Assembly (NCBI GenBank): GCA_947497945.1
Contig: CANMIP010000034.1
Span: 1-59,973, forward strand
DNA: 59,973 bases
DNA from: an uncultured Tropicimonas sp.
GTDB taxonomy: Bacteria > Pseudomonadota > Alphaproteobacteria > Rhodobacterales > Rhodobacteraceae
Direction: 5' to 3'
The notes under the pieces were generated by a model. The model had not been told where the DNA came from. It ran no database searches and worked only from the letters and a program-made list of their open reading frames with translations. Numbering within the stretch: position 1 is the stretch's first letter; every line of letters starts with the position of its first letter. Shown in pieces: positions 37,920 through 44,132 of this stretch. Made by a program: the position numbers and the translations under genes.

Positions 37920-38755
37920 GGTCTGTTGACGTTCAGCACAGAAGGATGAGCGTTGAAGCGAGCGCGACGAATGCCGTGAAGCTCTGATCGGTTTTGCAGG
38001 AACGCATCGCGATACCTCTGTTTTCCTTGAGCTTTCCGAAGAAGTTCTCGATCAGGTGACGCCATTTGTAGGTTTCCTTATCGAAATCTGCTGGGAAGCG
38101 GCGGTTGGATTTCGGCGGGATGACCGGTGCAATGGCCCGTTTATCCAGAGCGGATCGCAGCCAATTTGCATCGAAGGCGCGGTCGGCCAGCAGATGGTCG
38201 GCTGTGAGACCCGCTATCAGTTCCGGCACGCCGCGCAGGTCGTGCGCCTGGCCGGACAACAGGCGAAAATCGACAGGGTTTCCGAGCGCATCCGTCAGCG
38301 CTAGGATCTTGGTCGTGATGCCGCCACGTGAGCGCCCTATGGCCTGGCTCTGAGTCCCCCTTTGGCGCCCTGACCGGAGCGGTGGACCTTGACAATGGAC
38401 CCATCAATCATCGCGTATTCGAAGTCGGCCTCCGATGCCAATGCCCTGAACAGGCGGTAGAATGCATCTGCCTTCACCCAACGGCGGAAACGTTTGAAGA
38501 CCGAGTTCCATCTGCCGAATTCGTCCGGAAGCTCCCGCCATTGCGCTCCGGTTCGGACGATCCAGAGCACGGCTTCCACGAACAGACGCGGGTCACGACC
38601 GGTCTGGCCGGGGTCGGTAGGTTTGCCAAGGCAATGGGGTTCGATGATCGCCCATTGGGCATCAGTCAAAACACGACGGGTCAAGGCTGCTCTCCTCTGT
38701 TTGCAACCTTGAATCAGAGCTTACCCGAATTGTGAATCCTGAACGTCAACAGACC
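37920..38755 (-). mobile_element. Complete IS5-family insertion sequence, 836 bp
   Basis: The ends are perfect 17-bp inverted repeats (GGTCTGTTGACGTTCAG at the left). A 4-bp CTAG duplication flanks the element. It encodes one two-frame transposase. The size, ends and QAIGRSRGG protein motif place it in the IS5 family, probably the IS427 group. The perfect ends and duplication suggest a recent insertion. Confidence 0.93.
37933..38684 (-). CDS. IS5-family DDE transposase, made by -1 frameshifting
   Basis: The first frame (38684 down to 38337, 115 aa) begins [17 protein letters not shown] and carries the first catalytic Asp ([11 protein letters not shown]). The second frame (to 37933) carries the second Asp ([11 protein letters not shown]) and the Glu ([14 protein letters not shown]). 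The switch takes place at AAAGGGGG (complement of 38356-38363), after which the product reads [17 protein letters not shown]. All three catalytic residues are present, so the element is probably active. Confidence 0.9.
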
Positions 38756-39326: not shown

Positions 39327-40592
39327 TCAGGCCTGGGCCGGTTCGAGCCGCTCCGAGATTCGCCGCCGCACGAGTTCCACATGCAGCCTTGCGTCATAGG
39401 CCCCGCCCCGGAAGGGCGGCGGCAGGCGCATCTCGGCGATCTGGCGGTCGATCTCGTGGAGCCGTTTGTCCAGCGCCCGCAGCGCGCTGTCCTCCAGCGG
39501 CGCCGACAGGTCCATCTCGATCTCCCGGATCTCGGCATAGTAGCGCCAGACCCGCCGATGCATGGTCCAGCGATAGAGCCCCGGCAGGATCCGGAAGAGC
39601 GGAAATACCAGGAAGACCAGCGGCAACAACACCAGCAGGACGCGCCGGATCTGGGCGGCGATCCAGTAGGGCAGCCAGTCGTGAAAGGCGCTTTGGCCCT
39701 CCACGAGCAGTTTCAACGCGCCGGGGTCGATCGGCATGTCGGCCGCCTCCGCGGTCGGGAACTGCCCCTGGTGGGCAAAGATACTGTTGCCGCCATGGAT
39801 CTCGCGCGCCGCCAGCACGAGACGGTCGACAATGGCCGGATGCAGGTCATCGACCGCAGCCAGCCGCGCCAGCAGGGTCACCATCGGCGTCGGCACTGGC
39901 GGGATCACCGGGACCAGCGAGATCGCTCCGGACGGCACTGTCGCAACGCGGCTGAAGGGCAGGCGCAGCGAGATCGCATCGGCATGCGAGAGCCGCAACA
40001 TCCCGGCGGTCTGCGAGGAGAAAAGCGGCTCGAGATAGCTGGCATTCACAGGGGCGACAAAGATCGCCACGTCCAGCGCGCCCGCAAGCAGCGCTTCGCC
40101 GGCCTCGGCGCCATCGAGATCGGACAGGATGTTGCGCTCGGCGACGCCAAGCGCCTCCAGCATTCCGTCCACCGCGACCCGCGTGCCGGAGCCCGCGCCC
40201 CCGCGCGAAATCCGCAGCCCCTCCCAGAGGCCGGGATTGGCCGGTACGTCGCTGCCTTCGTTGACAAAGACCACGATCGGCTCGACCAGCACCGTGCCGA
40301 GCGCTTCGATCGGGAGGCCCCGCGCCGGGATGCCGCCCTGCAACAACCCGACATCGGCCTCACCCGTGCCCAGCAATCCGAGATTCTCGACAGATCCTGC
40401 GGTTTCGATGATTTCCAACGTGATGCCGTCCCGGGCCAGCACGTCGCGATATTGCTCGGCGATCTGCCAATATCCGCCATCCCGCCCGCCGGCGGCAAAA
40501 CGGATGCGGTCCGGCGGCGGCAGGTCCCGCAGCATGTACGCCGCGACGGCCAGCAGGACCCCGACCGCCAGGATGACATATCTAAGACGCAT
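39327..40592 (-). CDS. TAXI-family TRAP solute-binding-like protein with C-terminal membrane anchor
   Basis: The 421-aa protein has an N-terminal signal or anchor (YVILAVGVLLAVAAYML) and the TAXI domain (IRFAAGGRDGGYWQIAEQYRDVL, ADVGLLQGGIP). One membrane segment lies near 305-335 (RRVLLVLLPLVFLVFPLFRI). The C-terminal tail of about 80 residues is cytosolic and helical. Standard TAXI proteins are soluble periplasmic proteins, so the anchored form may be a sensor or a tethered binding protein. No TRAP permease is adjacent. Confidence 0.85.
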   Translation of the reverse strand: MRLRYVILAVGVLLAVAAYMLRDLPPPDRIRFAAGGRDGGYWQIAEQYRDVLARDGITLEIIETAGSVENLGLLGTGEADVGLLQGGIPARGLPIEALGTVLVEPIVVFVNEGSDVPANPGLWEGLRISRGGAGSGTRVAVDGMLEALGVAERNILSDLDGAEAGEALLAGALDVAIFVAPVNASYLEPLFSSQTAGMLRLSHADAISLRLPFSRVATVPSGAISLVPVIPPVPTPMVTLLARLAAVDDLHPAIVDRLVLAAREIHGGNSIFAHQGQFPTAEAADMPIDPGALKLLVEGQSAFHDWLPYWIAAQIRRVLLVLLPLVFLVFPLFRILPGLYRWTMHRRVWRYYAEIREIEMDLSAPLEDSALRALDKRLHEIDRQIAEMRLPPPFRGGAYDARLHVELVRRRISERLEPAQA

Positions 40593-40702
40593 GCACCCCC
40601 CCGGGATTCGAGCGCAGGGAAAGCCTGCCACAGGGGAGGGCGGCTTTCCAATCGGGCATTTCGCATATTGACGCAAAGACGCGAAAGGCGCATGACCGAT
40701 CC

Positions 40703-40750
40703 ATGAACCGTGAAGCCGCCTCCCGATTTTATTGGTCGCGTTCCAGATAG
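40703..40750 (+). CDS. Leader peptide of an attenuator, 15 codons
   Basis: ATG 40703 reads MNREAASRFYWSRSR and stops at TAG 40748-40750. Phe, Tyr and Trp codons are consecutive (40727-40735). It sits between arm 1 and arm 2 of a four-arm attenuator structure, exactly where control codons are expected. The upstream SD is only partial (AAAGG, 14 bases away). The start is therefore less sure than the RNA structure. Confidence 0.6.
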   Translation: MNREAASRFYWSRSR

Positions 40751-40808
40751 GAGCGGCCGGAGGGATTCACCCAGACCAAAGGCCGCCACGGGCGGCTTTT
40801 TTGTTTTT
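40715..40808 (+). promoter_or_regulatory. Transcription attenuator upstream of the GNAT gene
   Basis: Four arms can be drawn. Arm 1 is GCCGCCTCC (40715-40723). Arm 2 is GGAGCGGC(C) (40750-40758). Arm 3 is GGCCGCC (40781-40787). Arm 4 is GGCGGC (40791-40796) with TTTTTTGTTTTT. Pairing 1:2 and 3:4 gives pause hairpin plus terminator; pairing 2:3 gives the antiterminator. A ribosome stalled on the Phe-Tyr-Trp codons would mask arm 1 and release arm 2, so transcription would continue into the GNAT gene. Confidence 0.65.
40782..40808 (+). terminator. Intrinsic terminator of the attenuator
   Basis: GCCGCC and GGCGGC pair around a three-base loop, followed by TTTTTTGTTTTT. No gene on this strand ends upstream, which argues that the terminator is regulatory. 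Confidence 0.85.
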
Positions 40809-40853
40809 CACTCAGCTTCTCGTGGCGGTCCGCCAATGACAGGAGCTTGAGAC

Positions 40854-41366
40854 ATGCAGATGACAGAAATAGAGGCCGGCGCGCCGATTTCGCGGATCCG
40901 CGCGGCGACCCGGCAGGACGCCCCCCGACTGCTCGAGATGATCGCGGCCCTCTCCGCGCATCACGGCGATCACGCCACGGCCACGCTGCGGACGCTGGAG
41001 CGGGACCTCTTCGGCCCGACCGCCTGTTCGCGCGCCCTGGTGGCCGAGCGGGACGGCGCGCTTGTGGGCTACGCCCTGCTCTGCCCGCATCCGCATCTGC
41101 ATTTCGGCCTGCGTATCATGGATCTGCACCATCTCTTCGTTGAAGCCGCGCATCGCGGCGCCGGGATCGGGCGGCACCTCGTCGCCGCCACGGTGGCCGA
41201 GGCGCGCCGGCAGGAATGCGGCCGCCTGACGGTCTCGACCCAGGCCGACAATATGCGCGCCCAGGCGATCTACGATGCGCTTGGCTTCGAGCGCCAGGGA
41301 GCGGGCGGGCCGCGCTTCCGGCTGGACCTGCCGGCCAATGGCGCGCTGCCGGAGGGCTGGGTCTGA
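40854..41366 (+). CDS. GNAT family N-acetyltransferase under attenuator control
   Basis: The 170-aa enzyme has the acetyl-CoA motif LFVEAAHRGAGIGRHLVAA (about 93-112) and VSTQADNMRAQAIYDALGFERQG, a pattern of amine or amino-acid acetyltransferases. AGGAG lies eight bases ahead of ATG 40854. A leader peptide and attenuator precede it, so its expression likely responds to translation of aromatic (or Ser/Arg) codons. Its substrate is unknown. Confidence 0.88.
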   Translation: MQMTEIEAGAPISRIRAATRQDAPRLLEMIAALSAHHGDHATATLRTLERDLFGPTACSRALVAERDGALVGYALLCPHPHLHFGLRIMDLHHLFVEAAHRGAGIGRHLVAATVAEARRQECGRLTVSTQADNMRAQAIYDALGFERQGAGGPRFRLDLPANGALPEGWV

Positions 41367-41672
41367 ACCCGCTGCCCACGGGACGCAATTGGGCCGGTTG
41401 CAAGGCGGCCCTGGCAGGGCGAAAAGCGACAGGCCCAGGGCAGAGCGCAGCCGCCATAACGGTGCACATGGCCGCCGGTGCGGGCAGCAGGCCTGAGAGG
41501 CGGGGCACCCCTGCATTTTGGAAGCCGTGCCCGCGCCGGGGTTCCGGAGGGGCTCGTCGCGCCGGTGCGCGCAAGCCGCGCCCTGCCGGCCTGCTCGGGA
41601 TCTTGTTGCCCATGACACGCGGCTTCGAGCGTCCGAAAACAACTCTTGTTCAGCATGTTGTCGACAAATGCC
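41367..41672. other. Gap, nothing recognised
   Basis: About 300 bases between convergent genes, without a clear gene or terminator. Confidence 0.4.
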
Positions 41673-44132
41673 TCATCTGGGCACGAGCGTCGTGACCCCG
41701 ACCGCGCCAGCGCGGGCCAGCTCCGGATCCAGCGTCATCGGGATATATTCGCCGCGCCGCCACAGGTCGCCAAGGTCGTCATAATGCCGGCTCAGCGGGT
41801 GGCCCGACTGGCCGGTCGCGGTGATGAAGACCGAGGCATCGGGGTCGGCGAAATCATAGACGCCGCGATAGCCGGCGGCATGGATATTGGCGAAGGGATC
41901 GCGCCCGGTTCCGGCGGTCTGGGCGCGCTGCAGCGTGTTGTCGCCGCCCGAGGTCGACTGGCGGATATTGACGAACCACTTGAGCACCGGCGCCCCGCCC
42001 AACACTTCGTGATCGTGGCGGGCCTCATGCGCGTCGCCCCAGCGCAGGCTCTCGAGCGCCGAACCATAGCGGTCGCCGATCCAGAGCAGCGCCTCGTCCA
42101 GCGCGATGCGGGCGGTGTCTGAACAGGTTTCCAGCATGGTCGATTGCCGGATATCGCACCAGGCGGAGGCGCCGTCGATATCGCGGAAGACACGTTCGAT
42201 GAAGAGCGGTTCGGGATGCAGGAAGGCCTCCGAGAGCTGGCCCAGGTCGTCGACGATGAGCTTCTTCTGAAGTTGCCGCAGCCAGGCGGCATAGATCAGC
42301 GGCTCCGGCAGGTGCTCGTTCATCTCGCCATTCCAGTTCGCGAGCAATTCCAACGCCTTCTGCCGCTGGCGCTCGGGCGTTCCCTCCGGCGCGGCCTCGC
42401 CCGTGTACCACAGGTCGCGCGCGATCAGCGGCAGCAGCGCGCGGGCGGTGAAGGAGACGGTGTCGAGCTGGGCGGCGATGAAGCTCTCGCGGGTATGGAC
42501 CTCGCGCTCCGCCATCAGCTTCTGCCAGCGCTGGATGCGTTGCGTGTCGCCCCACAGGAAGCTGACATGGTCCGGGAAGGGGCGGTCGGTGGTCTTGTTG
42601 TTGGTGTTGCCGACAATGCCGCCCTCGGGGTCGCGCAGCCGCGGATTGCTGTCATAGGGCAGGGTGCCTTGCCAGCGGTTCTGCGCCTGCCAGCCAAGCG
42701 AGGGCAGCCGGCCCTGGCCGACATGGCCGGGATCGCGCGCGGGCAGGGCGCCCATCAGTTGCAGGGCAACGCCGTCGGAATCGGCCAGGATCATGTTGAC
42801 CGCAGGGGCGACATGGCGCGCGCCGGCCTCGATCGCGGTGGAGATGTCCGGCGCCTCCATGAGCCCCAGCATGGCGGCGAAAGAGCTGTCCTCGGCGGAG
42901 AGCGCGGTCCAGGCGAGCGCGGCGACATGGCCCGGGGGGGTAACGCCGTCGAGGCCGAGATGGCTGCCGGGCAGGACCGGGCCGTTCTCGGTCCAGCGCA
43001 GGGTGATTGTGACCGGATCGGCATCCCTGACCTTGATGATCGAGCGCTCCGTGCGGAAGGGCTTCCAGCCGCGCGGGGTGCGATAGGTCTCGGGATTGGC
43101 CGGGTTCAGCTCCTCCATGTAGAGGTCCTGGTCGTCGGCATAGGCGGCGGTCAGCCCCCAGCCGAGCCGCCCGGAGCGCCCCGCCAGCACCACCGGCAGG
43201 CCCGGGATCGTGCCGCCGATCACGCCGCCCGAGCGCAGCTCCATCCGCGCCAGGTACCAGATCGTCGGCGCCGTGAGCCCCAGATGCGGGTCATTGGCGA
43301 CCAGCGCCGCGCCGGCAGCCGAGCGTGCGGGCGTGGCCGCCCAGGCGTTGGAGGCGCCGGACAGGCGCGGCTGGCCCAGCGGGTGCAGCGGATCCGTCGG
43401 CCAGTGCGGCGCGCGGGCGAAGGGGGGGCGCCCGGGGAAGAGGCTGCCATAATCGGGGGCGCCGGCGGTCGCGTCGCCGGGAACATCGGGCATCAGGTCC
43501 TTGAGGCGCTCCGGCGGCAGCACCAGCGCGGCGGAGGCGCGCAGGATCTCGTTCTGCATATGCGGGCTGAGCTGCAGCGCCATCAGCTTGGCGATGGCGA
43601 GGGAATCGGCGGGCTGCCAGGGCGCGATCTCCGGCTGGAAGAGGAAGAATTCCGGCGCCCCGCGCCCGAGCGCCTCCTCGTTGACCTTGCGCAGCCAGGC
43701 ATTCACCCCCGCCGCATAGGCGCGCAGCATCTCCTGGCTGTGCGGGTCCAGATGCTGGACGGAGGCGGTGGCGGTCCGGTAGAGATCGAGCCGGCGCAGG
43801 AACTCGTCGGCCTGCACGGTGCGGCTGCCGAACTGCTCGGACAGGCGCCCTTGCGCCTTGCGGCGCAGCAGCGTCATCTGCCAGAGCCGGTCCTGGGCAT
43901 GGGAGAAGCCGAGCCCGTAGAAGACATCCGCGTCGCTGTCGCCGAAGATATGCGGCACATTGGAATTGTCGCGCACGATCTCGACCGGCGCGCCGAGCCC
44001 GTCGACATTCCAGGTCGTGTCGTAATCGGGCAGCGAACGGCTGGCGAAGAAATAGGCCAGCGTTGCCGTGGCGGCCGCGAGCACGAGCACAGTCGTCAGC
44101 AGCCGCAATGTCCAGCGGAAAACCCGTTCCAT
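41673..44132 (-). CDS. Penicillin acylase-family (Ntn) hydrolase
   Basis: The 819-aa periplasmic protein begins with a signal anchor (LRLLTTVLVLAAATATLAYFF). The alpha-chain part carries VEIVRDNSNVPHIFGDSDADVFYGLGFSHAQDRLWQM. The N-terminal nucleophile Ser of the beta chain is in LSGASNAWA (near 257), where self-cleavage takes place. Family members hydrolyse penicillins, cephalosporins or acyl-homoserine lactones; the real substrate here is not readable. The ATG at 44132 follows GGGGCAGG. Confidence 0.9.
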   Translation of the reverse strand: MERVFRWTLRLLTTVLVLAAATATLAYFFASRSLPDYDTTWNVDGLGAPVEIVRDNSNVPHIFGDSDADVFYGLGFSHAQDRLWQMTLLRRKAQGRLSEQFGSRTVQADEFLRRLDLYRTATASVQHLDPHSQEMLRAYAAGVNAWLRKVNEEALGRGAPEFFLFQPEIAPWQPADSLAIAKLMALQLSPHMQNEILRASAALVLPPERLKDLMPDVPGDATAGAPDYGSLFPGRPPFARAPHWPTDPLHPLGQPRLSGASNAWAATPARSAAGAALVANDPHLGLTAPTIWYLARMELRSGGVIGGTIPGLPVVLAGRSGRLGWGLTAAYADDQDLYMEELNPANPETYRTPRGWKPFRTERSIIKVRDADPVTITLRWTENGPVLPGSHLGLDGVTPPGHVAALAWTALSAEDSSFAAMLGLMEAPDISTAIEAGARHVAPAVNMILADSDGVALQLMGALPARDPGHVGQGRLPSLGWQAQNRWQGTLPYDSNPRLRDPEGGIVGNTNNKTTDRPFPDHVSFLWGDTQRIQRWQKLMAEREVHTRESFIAAQLDTVSFTARALLPLIARDLWYTGEAAPEGTPERQRQKALELLANWNGEMNEHLPEPLIYAAWLRQLQKKLIVDDLGQLSEAFLHPEPLFIERVFRDIDGASAWCDIRQSTMLETCSDTARIALDEALLWIGDRYGSALESLRWGDAHEARHDHEVLGGAPVLKWFVNIRQSTSGGDNTLQRAQTAGTGRDPFANIHAAGYRGVYDFADPDASVFITATGQSGHPLSRHYDDLGDLWRRGEYIPMTLDPELARAGAVGVTTLVPR

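Follow-up and report, generated by a model that had tools for sequence, protein, structure and literature searches.

A tyrosine-centred leader attenuator that probably controls a GNAT acetyltransferase gene in Aliiruegeria and other Alphaproteobacteria

Introduction

The trp and phe operons of Proteobacteria carry leader attenuators (trpL and pheL), and the classic leader attenuators serve the Trp, Phe, His, Leu, Ile/Val and Thr pathways. Passages of two reports (PMC7298713, PMC10117765) describe the trpL transcript of S. meliloti (rnTrpL) as beginning at the AUG of a 14-codon leader ORF, i.e. as leaderless, and as able to end at the attenuator terminator.

We analysed a stretch of 59,973 nucleotides (the window, by which we mean the whole of it) from what we take to be the genus Aliiruegeria. 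Sequence comparison and modelling make it highly probable that a GNAT acetyltransferase gene in this window is controlled by a Tyr-centred (Tyr/Phe/Trp) ribosome-mediated transcription attenuator, a variant of the known kind. Like trpL and pheL, the GNAT leader combines a short ORF of cognate codons, arms that could pair as 1:2, 2:3 and 3:4, a U tract and the logic of stall-dependent antitermination. Unlike them, it has a near-constant Tyr together with Phe and Trp, its target is a lone GNAT gene and no biosynthetic operon, an extra arm (arm 5) lies near the Shine–Dalgarno (SD) sequence, the ORF is probably leaderless, and no Rfam leader family matches it at cut-off. With rnTrpL, as presented in passages of the same two reports (PMC7298713, PMC10117765), it shares an alphaproteobacterial origin and probably also the transcription start at the AUG, whereas rnTrpL has Trp codons and trpE(G) and the GNAT leader has Tyr-centred codons. 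A search of open-access PMC by titles and abstracts found no literature on this leader.

Results

An earlier note on the window had read the region ahead of the GNAT gene as a four-arm attenuator, with a 15-codon ORF that holds a Phe-Tyr-Trp run and with a T6-G-T5 tract behind the arms. All of these elements occur in the window letters where the note had placed them (Table 1), including GGAGCGGCC at 40750-40758, GGCCGCC at 40781-40787 and GGCGGC at 40791-40796. Arm 1, first put at 40715-40723, seems better conserved at 40733-40744, the choice of RNAalifold on nine sequences, and we place it there. To the original description we add arm 5 (40819-40829) and a promoter spacing that implies a probably leaderless ORF.

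Table 1. Features of the GNAT leader region, in window positions
Feature	Position	Strand	Remarks	Basis
Promoter	40668..40696	+	-35 box TTGACG 40668-40673; -10 region 40691-40696; expected +1 at 40703 (A of the leader AUG)	spacing across loci
Leader ORF MNREAASRFYWSRSR	40703..40750	+	15 codons; stop TAG 40748-40750; probably leaderless	
Putative stall codons TTT TAT TGG	40727..40735	+	Phe-Tyr-Trp	window letters; modelled stalling
Arm 1 TGGTCGCGTTCC	40733..40744	+	partner: arm 2	RNAalifold, 9 genus sequences; 87.8% of cells paired
Arm 2 GGAGCGGCCG	40750..40759	+	partner: arm 1 or arm 3	genus pairing; 2:3 shuffle test, 36 loci
Arm 3 AAAGGCCGCC	40778..40787	+	terminator 5' side; can pair with arms 2 and 5 as well	terminator scan, pairing tests
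Arm 4 GGCGGCTTTT	40791..40800	+	terminator 3' side	terminator scan (10 pairs)
T tract	40797..40808	+	T6-G-T5	window letters
Arm 5 CTCGTGGCGGT	40819..40829	+	partner: arm 3 and terminator loop (40782-40792); potential fold over the SD region	96% of cells paired in genus; 3:5 beats shuffles
Shine–Dalgarno AGGAG	40841..40845	+	of the GNAT gene	window letters
GNAT acetyltransferase gene	40854..41366	+	170 aa	ORF; Pfam match (PF00583)

The hairpin at 40778-40800, with 10 pairs and the T tract, was picked up by the terminator scan, and in the window the 3:4 helix with its U tract has the form of an intrinsic terminator. It is one of seven terminator-like sites on the two strands of 39500-42500, where shuffles lead one to expect 1.5. 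Within the window only a tRNA (1659-1731) attains its Rfam gathering score, and neither a T-box nor any other leader family does so. Between 40600 and 40900 the sole leader family up to E 10 is Phe_leader (RF01859), which stays below its cut-off (15.4 bits versus 55, E 4.7). Elsewhere in the window, two short minus-strand ORFs (37933-38684) look by eye like the halves of a broken IS5-like transposase.

A set of 54 such leaders was curated by hand, partly for aromatic content; Aliiruegeria contributes 10 of them, other Rhodobacterales 40 and Rhizobiales 4. The Aliiruegeria leaders represent nine genomes (with A. lutimaris DSM 25294, L118, whose GNAT is identical, standing for L005) plus A. sabulilitoris. 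At 42 of the 54 loci TTGAC stands 35 or 36 nt upstream of the leader ATG; at L059, L121 and L162 an in-frame ATG 6 nt upstream matches this spacing, and at seven loci TTGAC is absent from the expected distance. The 35-nt class (20 loci, near-duplicates removed) has A at -11 in 90% and T at -7 in 45%, and the 36-nt class (13 loci) has A at -12 in 69% and T at -8 in 69%. Because of this spacing and of the A/T peaks near -11 and -7, we conclude that transcription probably begins at the leader AUG. Such a start would explain a leader ORF that lacks an SD, and largely answers what the earlier note had named as the weak point of its reading, the poor SD of the leader.

Conservation in relatives, the check that the earlier note had called for, is borne out within the genus: each of the nine Aliiruegeria genomes holds one GNAT orthologue (E 1e-25 or better), and each orthologue is preceded by the leader and its hairpin. 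Eight of the nine leaders read RFYW or SFYW; in the ninth, L009, the motif is RWFYRRY, with the same residues differently ordered. When the leader's covariance model was run over 394 family genomes, 24 gave a match at E 0.05 or better, and two of these are Aliiruegeria. Among the 22 other matches, eight precede a GNAT gene (L046, L047, L049, L050, L051, L054, L059 and L061), four stand before trpS with WW leaders (L048, L052, L064 and L066) and one (L056), whose leader has YY, stands before a gene resembling prephenate dehydrogenase; the remaining nine looked like chance or unrelated hairpins (L053, L055, L057, L058, L060, L062, L063, L065 and L067). At L049, which has an FYW leader, the GNAT profile match amounts to 79.5 bits, with no Pfam family at 1e-5. 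A deeper covariance-model scan of the genus returned 25 matches, all ranked below the nine GNAT leaders.

The GNAT profile itself matched 57 of the 394 family genomes at E 1e-22. Reading 330 nt upstream of the best 47 GNAT places (E 5.3e-28 or better, in 46 genomes), we found an intact aromatic leader at 32, a damaged one at a single place (L054) and none in the 330 nt at 14 (L010/L085, L012, L076, L079, L080, L087, L089, L091, L092, L096, L097, L100, L109 and L113). The damaged leader (L054, 1501-1623) has lost its stop, and its ORF runs through the hairpin; it is perhaps a decaying copy. One genome, G401, holds two GNAT copies (L079 and L102), one with the leader and one without.

An initial scan of named genomes turned up no relative; among the named loci the leader is present at 13 of 14, the exception being a distant Pseudomonas match. 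GNAT matches occurred in 69 plasmid records, and three of the four plasmid copies examined have the leader, the Methylobacterium copy L163 having none. Four Rhizobiales copies (L123, L125, L161 and L164) have YFW or WYF leaders; one of the four is the S. meliloti Ak57 copy on pSymB, whose leader reads MIKNAPISSVYFWLFR. The GNAT has few matches beyond the family: at E 1e-27 it occurs in 7 of 385 class-level genomes, of which three in fact belong to the family, and a search by promoter spacing (see below) found no leader at the other four class-level loci (L193-L196). In a 72-row GNAT tree (without L102), in which many deep forks are weak, the orthologues lacking a leader are spread over several clades; scattered loss of the leader would be the simplest reading. 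The system is more widespread than the earlier note saw.

The aromatic leader described in the earlier note is thus kept, and its composition can be refined. Tyr is nearly constant (53 of the 54 curated leaders, L110 being the only one without it) and mostly adjoins another aromatic residue; Phe occurs in 48 and Trp in 28. The order of the aromatic residues varies from leader to leader (FYW, WYF, YFW, WFY, YF, YY). The leader keeps a composition, not a nucleotide sequence or an arrest sequence. When 44 leaders (ten near-duplicates dropped) were compared with the coding sequence of the GNATs that they precede, Tyr was enriched 4.3-fold (p 1e-17), Trp 3.7-fold and Phe 2.3-fold. Ser, Thr and Asn were likewise enriched, by 2.3 to 2.5 fold, and Cys showed no enrichment (1.25-fold, p 0.42). 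The choice of Tyr codons also differs, with a TAT:TAC ratio of 49:11 in the leaders versus 64:84 in the GNAT genes.

Applied to the loci collected up to that point, a rule blind to composition (TTGAC, 35 or 36 nt, ATG, ORF of 8-25 codons) returned 58 ORFs. Of these, 45 overlap curated leaders, 44 of them with Tyr; the other 13 include two with Tyr, and five of the 13 belong to trpS or tyrA-like genes. Spacing by itself recovered the leader ORFs of three gene types among the loci examined, and the rule could be run on whole genomes. In L172-L192, from the deeper scan of the genus, it yielded the trpS leader of L172 and one other ORF, which is unremarkable.

The same codons might serve another purpose, with the leader sensing hypomodified tRNA rather than amino-acid supply. 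The tRNAs of the ms2i6A37 set read UNN codons, the modification is linked to iron-sulphur status, and trp and phe attenuators respond to it. All codons for Phe, Tyr and Trp start with U, and Ser is enriched in the leaders as well, with 34 of 54 Ser codons being UCN. However, the GNAT genes show the same UCN share (135 of 224), two members of the set are not favoured (Cys, with the ratio given above, and UUR Leu, which accounts for 5 of 641 codons), and the most enriched residue is Tyr. On composition, we give this reading a slim chance.

The freedom of order bears on a further alternative, an arrest leader of the erm or cat type induced by an antibiotic or other ligand, where a drug-bound nascent peptide would stall the ribosome and the GNAT would be a resistance enzyme. 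Resistance enzymes do exist among GNATs, aminoglycoside and streptothricin acetyltransferase models match this GNAT weakly (far below cut-off), and the S. meliloti Ak57 copy has a class A beta-lactamase in its vicinity. But arrest peptides require a fixed sequence, and in these leaders the aromatic order and the neighbouring residues change freely through all the variants listed above while the composition is kept. The chance that the leader works in this manner is therefore very slim.

In the genus alignment, 88% of cells are paired for 1:2, 94% for 3:4, 94% for 2:3 and 96% for 3:5, and mutually exclusive 1:2, 2:3 and 3:4 pairings are possible. RNAalifold draws 1:2 and 3:5 on this alignment, preferring 3:5 over 3:4. 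Covariation within the genus was slight for 1:2, 2:3, 3:4 and 3:5, on most measures no better than in shuffles; because it is too weak to prove the helices, we used per-locus shuffle tests across genera. The 36 test loci are the 54 minus ten without a terminator-like hairpin by our rule and minus eight near-duplicates. Across these loci, which still include two Aliiruegeria and three Sulfitobacter and are not independent where related, and against shuffles that preserved base composition only, the combined Fisher p was 3e-18 for 2:3, 1e-6 for 1:2 and 5e-8 for 3:5, with 20, 8 and 9 single loci, respectively, reaching p 0.05.

The stretch before the GNAT gene also tends to cover its SD (mean over 44 loci 0.64 versus 0.50 shuffled, Fisher 9e-9), and single loci reach p 0.05 in 9 and 0.2 in 27 of the 44; in the window alone the effect has no significance (p 0.12 to 0.16). 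By our rule the hairpin is missing at 10 of the 54 loci, and nine loci with a hairpin (L082, L086, L088, L098, L103, L105, L108, L110 and L162) have no T run after it. These nine keep the leader and the arms, and control there may be translational.

We modelled the effect of a ribosome on the leader at the 36 loci. Before arm 4 is present, P(2:3) averaged 0.71 for a ribosome at the first Tyr, 0.26 for ribosome-free RNA and 0.06 for a ribosome at the stop. Stalling raised P(2:3) by more than 0.1 over the stop position at 34 of 36 loci and over the ribosome-free state at 30, and the reverse occurred at none. When the ribosome was slid along the leader, P(2:3) was highest, at 0.68-0.69, over the codons 5 to 7 places ahead of the stop; the peak is broad, with values of 0.59 for codon 4 and 0.60 for codon 8. 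Codons 5-7 contain 69 of the 102 aromatic residues, and the Phe-Tyr-Trp codons of the window lie just there, 5 to 7 codons ahead of the leader stop, where the model favours the antiterminator most. Shuffling arm 2 lowered the stalled P(2:3) to 0.35.

At equilibrium with arm 4 present, the mean P(3:4) was 0.86 stalled, 0.85 with no ribosome and 0.90 at the stop, and in most loci the stalled state does not favour the antiterminator. Because the terminator dominates at equilibrium even when the ribosome is stalled, switching must be kinetic, i.e. won by timing.

The comparison shows conservation, composition, promoter spacing and the potential for pairing. Across genera, nucleotides and codon order differ, but the ORF, the aromatic codons in it and the alternative pairings persist, which lends support to the attenuator reading of the earlier note. 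There is hardly any chance that the hairpin is the plain terminator of a short transcript, with a chance ORF and a GNAT gene that has its own promoter: the leader is indeed absent at 14 of 47 orthologue places, but composition, spacing, the position of the aromatic codons and the alternative pairing are preserved beyond nucleotide identity.

Discussion

The attenuator that we propose would work as follows. Transcription would start at the AUG of the leaderless 15-codon ORF, as the promoter spacing suggests. When Tyr-tRNA (in the genus also Phe- and Trp-tRNA) is charged, the ribosome would reach the stop and mask arm 2, the 3:4 terminator would form and the GNAT gene would be off. When charged aromatic tRNA is scarce, the ribosome would stall at Phe-Tyr-Trp and mask arm 1, arms 2 and 3 would pair before arm 4 exists, and polymerase would enter the GNAT gene. 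In the read-through RNA, arm 5 could capture arm 3, keeping the GNAT SD free; in transcripts that leak through although 3:4 has formed, it could fold over the SD and act as a second lock. The stalling, the antitermination and the second lock are our inferences.

The GNAT would then be an enzyme produced during a shortage of aromatic amino acids, chiefly of Tyr, and it is very probably switched on when Tyr, Phe and Trp run short in many marine and soil bacteria. A Tyr-centred attenuator on an enzyme outside biosynthetic operons is unusual. Arm 5 suggests that attenuators are able to gate the translation of their read-through product as well. If true, a switch that combines transcription and translation through arms 1 to 5 and the SD would represent a new design for an attenuator. 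As the leader points to what an orphan GNAT responds to, the function of the enzyme becomes testable.

Related leaders stand before other genes. The trpS leaders of the same family (L048, L052, L064, L066 and L172) resemble the GNAT leader in promoter spacing and in the layout of leader and hairpin, and differ from it in their WW codons and in their target, a tRNA ligase; the identity of the trpS genes is given by TIGR00233, above cut-off. The last of these, L172, comes from an Aliiruegeria genome. The gene behind the YY leader of L056 (683-1620; leader MIRMRPFATVYYAPSP) is prephenate-dehydrogenase-like, with PF02153 above cut-off and NCBIfam models below theirs. In the 29 loci of a tyrA search (L132-L160), which extend no further than 1.5 kb past the match, no Tyr leader turned up by the spacing rule, whose one hit, in L147, is without Tyr.

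The enzyme itself appears, by profile comparison, to be SSAT/thialysine-like. Its nearest solved relatives by a 12-row profile are SSAT2 and thialysine acetyltransferases (2bei and 12jc; also 2fe7, a probable N-acetyltransferase), and these matches are distant (E 1e-15 to 2e-18; 1.9e-18 for SSAT2). None of 25 listed NCBIfam models reaches its cut-off for the GNAT, a defence-family library holds no match to it, and a cursory look at gene neighbourhoods revealed no partner gene common to all.

As to what the enzyme does under aromatic shortage, one tentative and rather doubtful idea is that it is an inducible protective enzyme whose leader senses damage: a compound that depletes charged Tyr-, Phe- and Trp-tRNA would induce the acetyltransferase that inactivates this very compound. 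Candidates would be a blocker of the shikimate pathway, an inhibitor of an aromatic tRNA ligase or an aromatic amino-acid analogue. The patchy spread of the GNAT (57 of 394 family genomes), in differing gene settings, is consistent with such a role.

Two observations concern the gene downstream of the GNAT. In A. lutimaris (L118, 6309-7358) it is an ORF on the opposite strand that by eye looks like queA, a gene of tRNA queuosine, which concerns tRNA-Tyr too. In the window, the corresponding position is occupied by a penicillin-acylase-like ORF instead.
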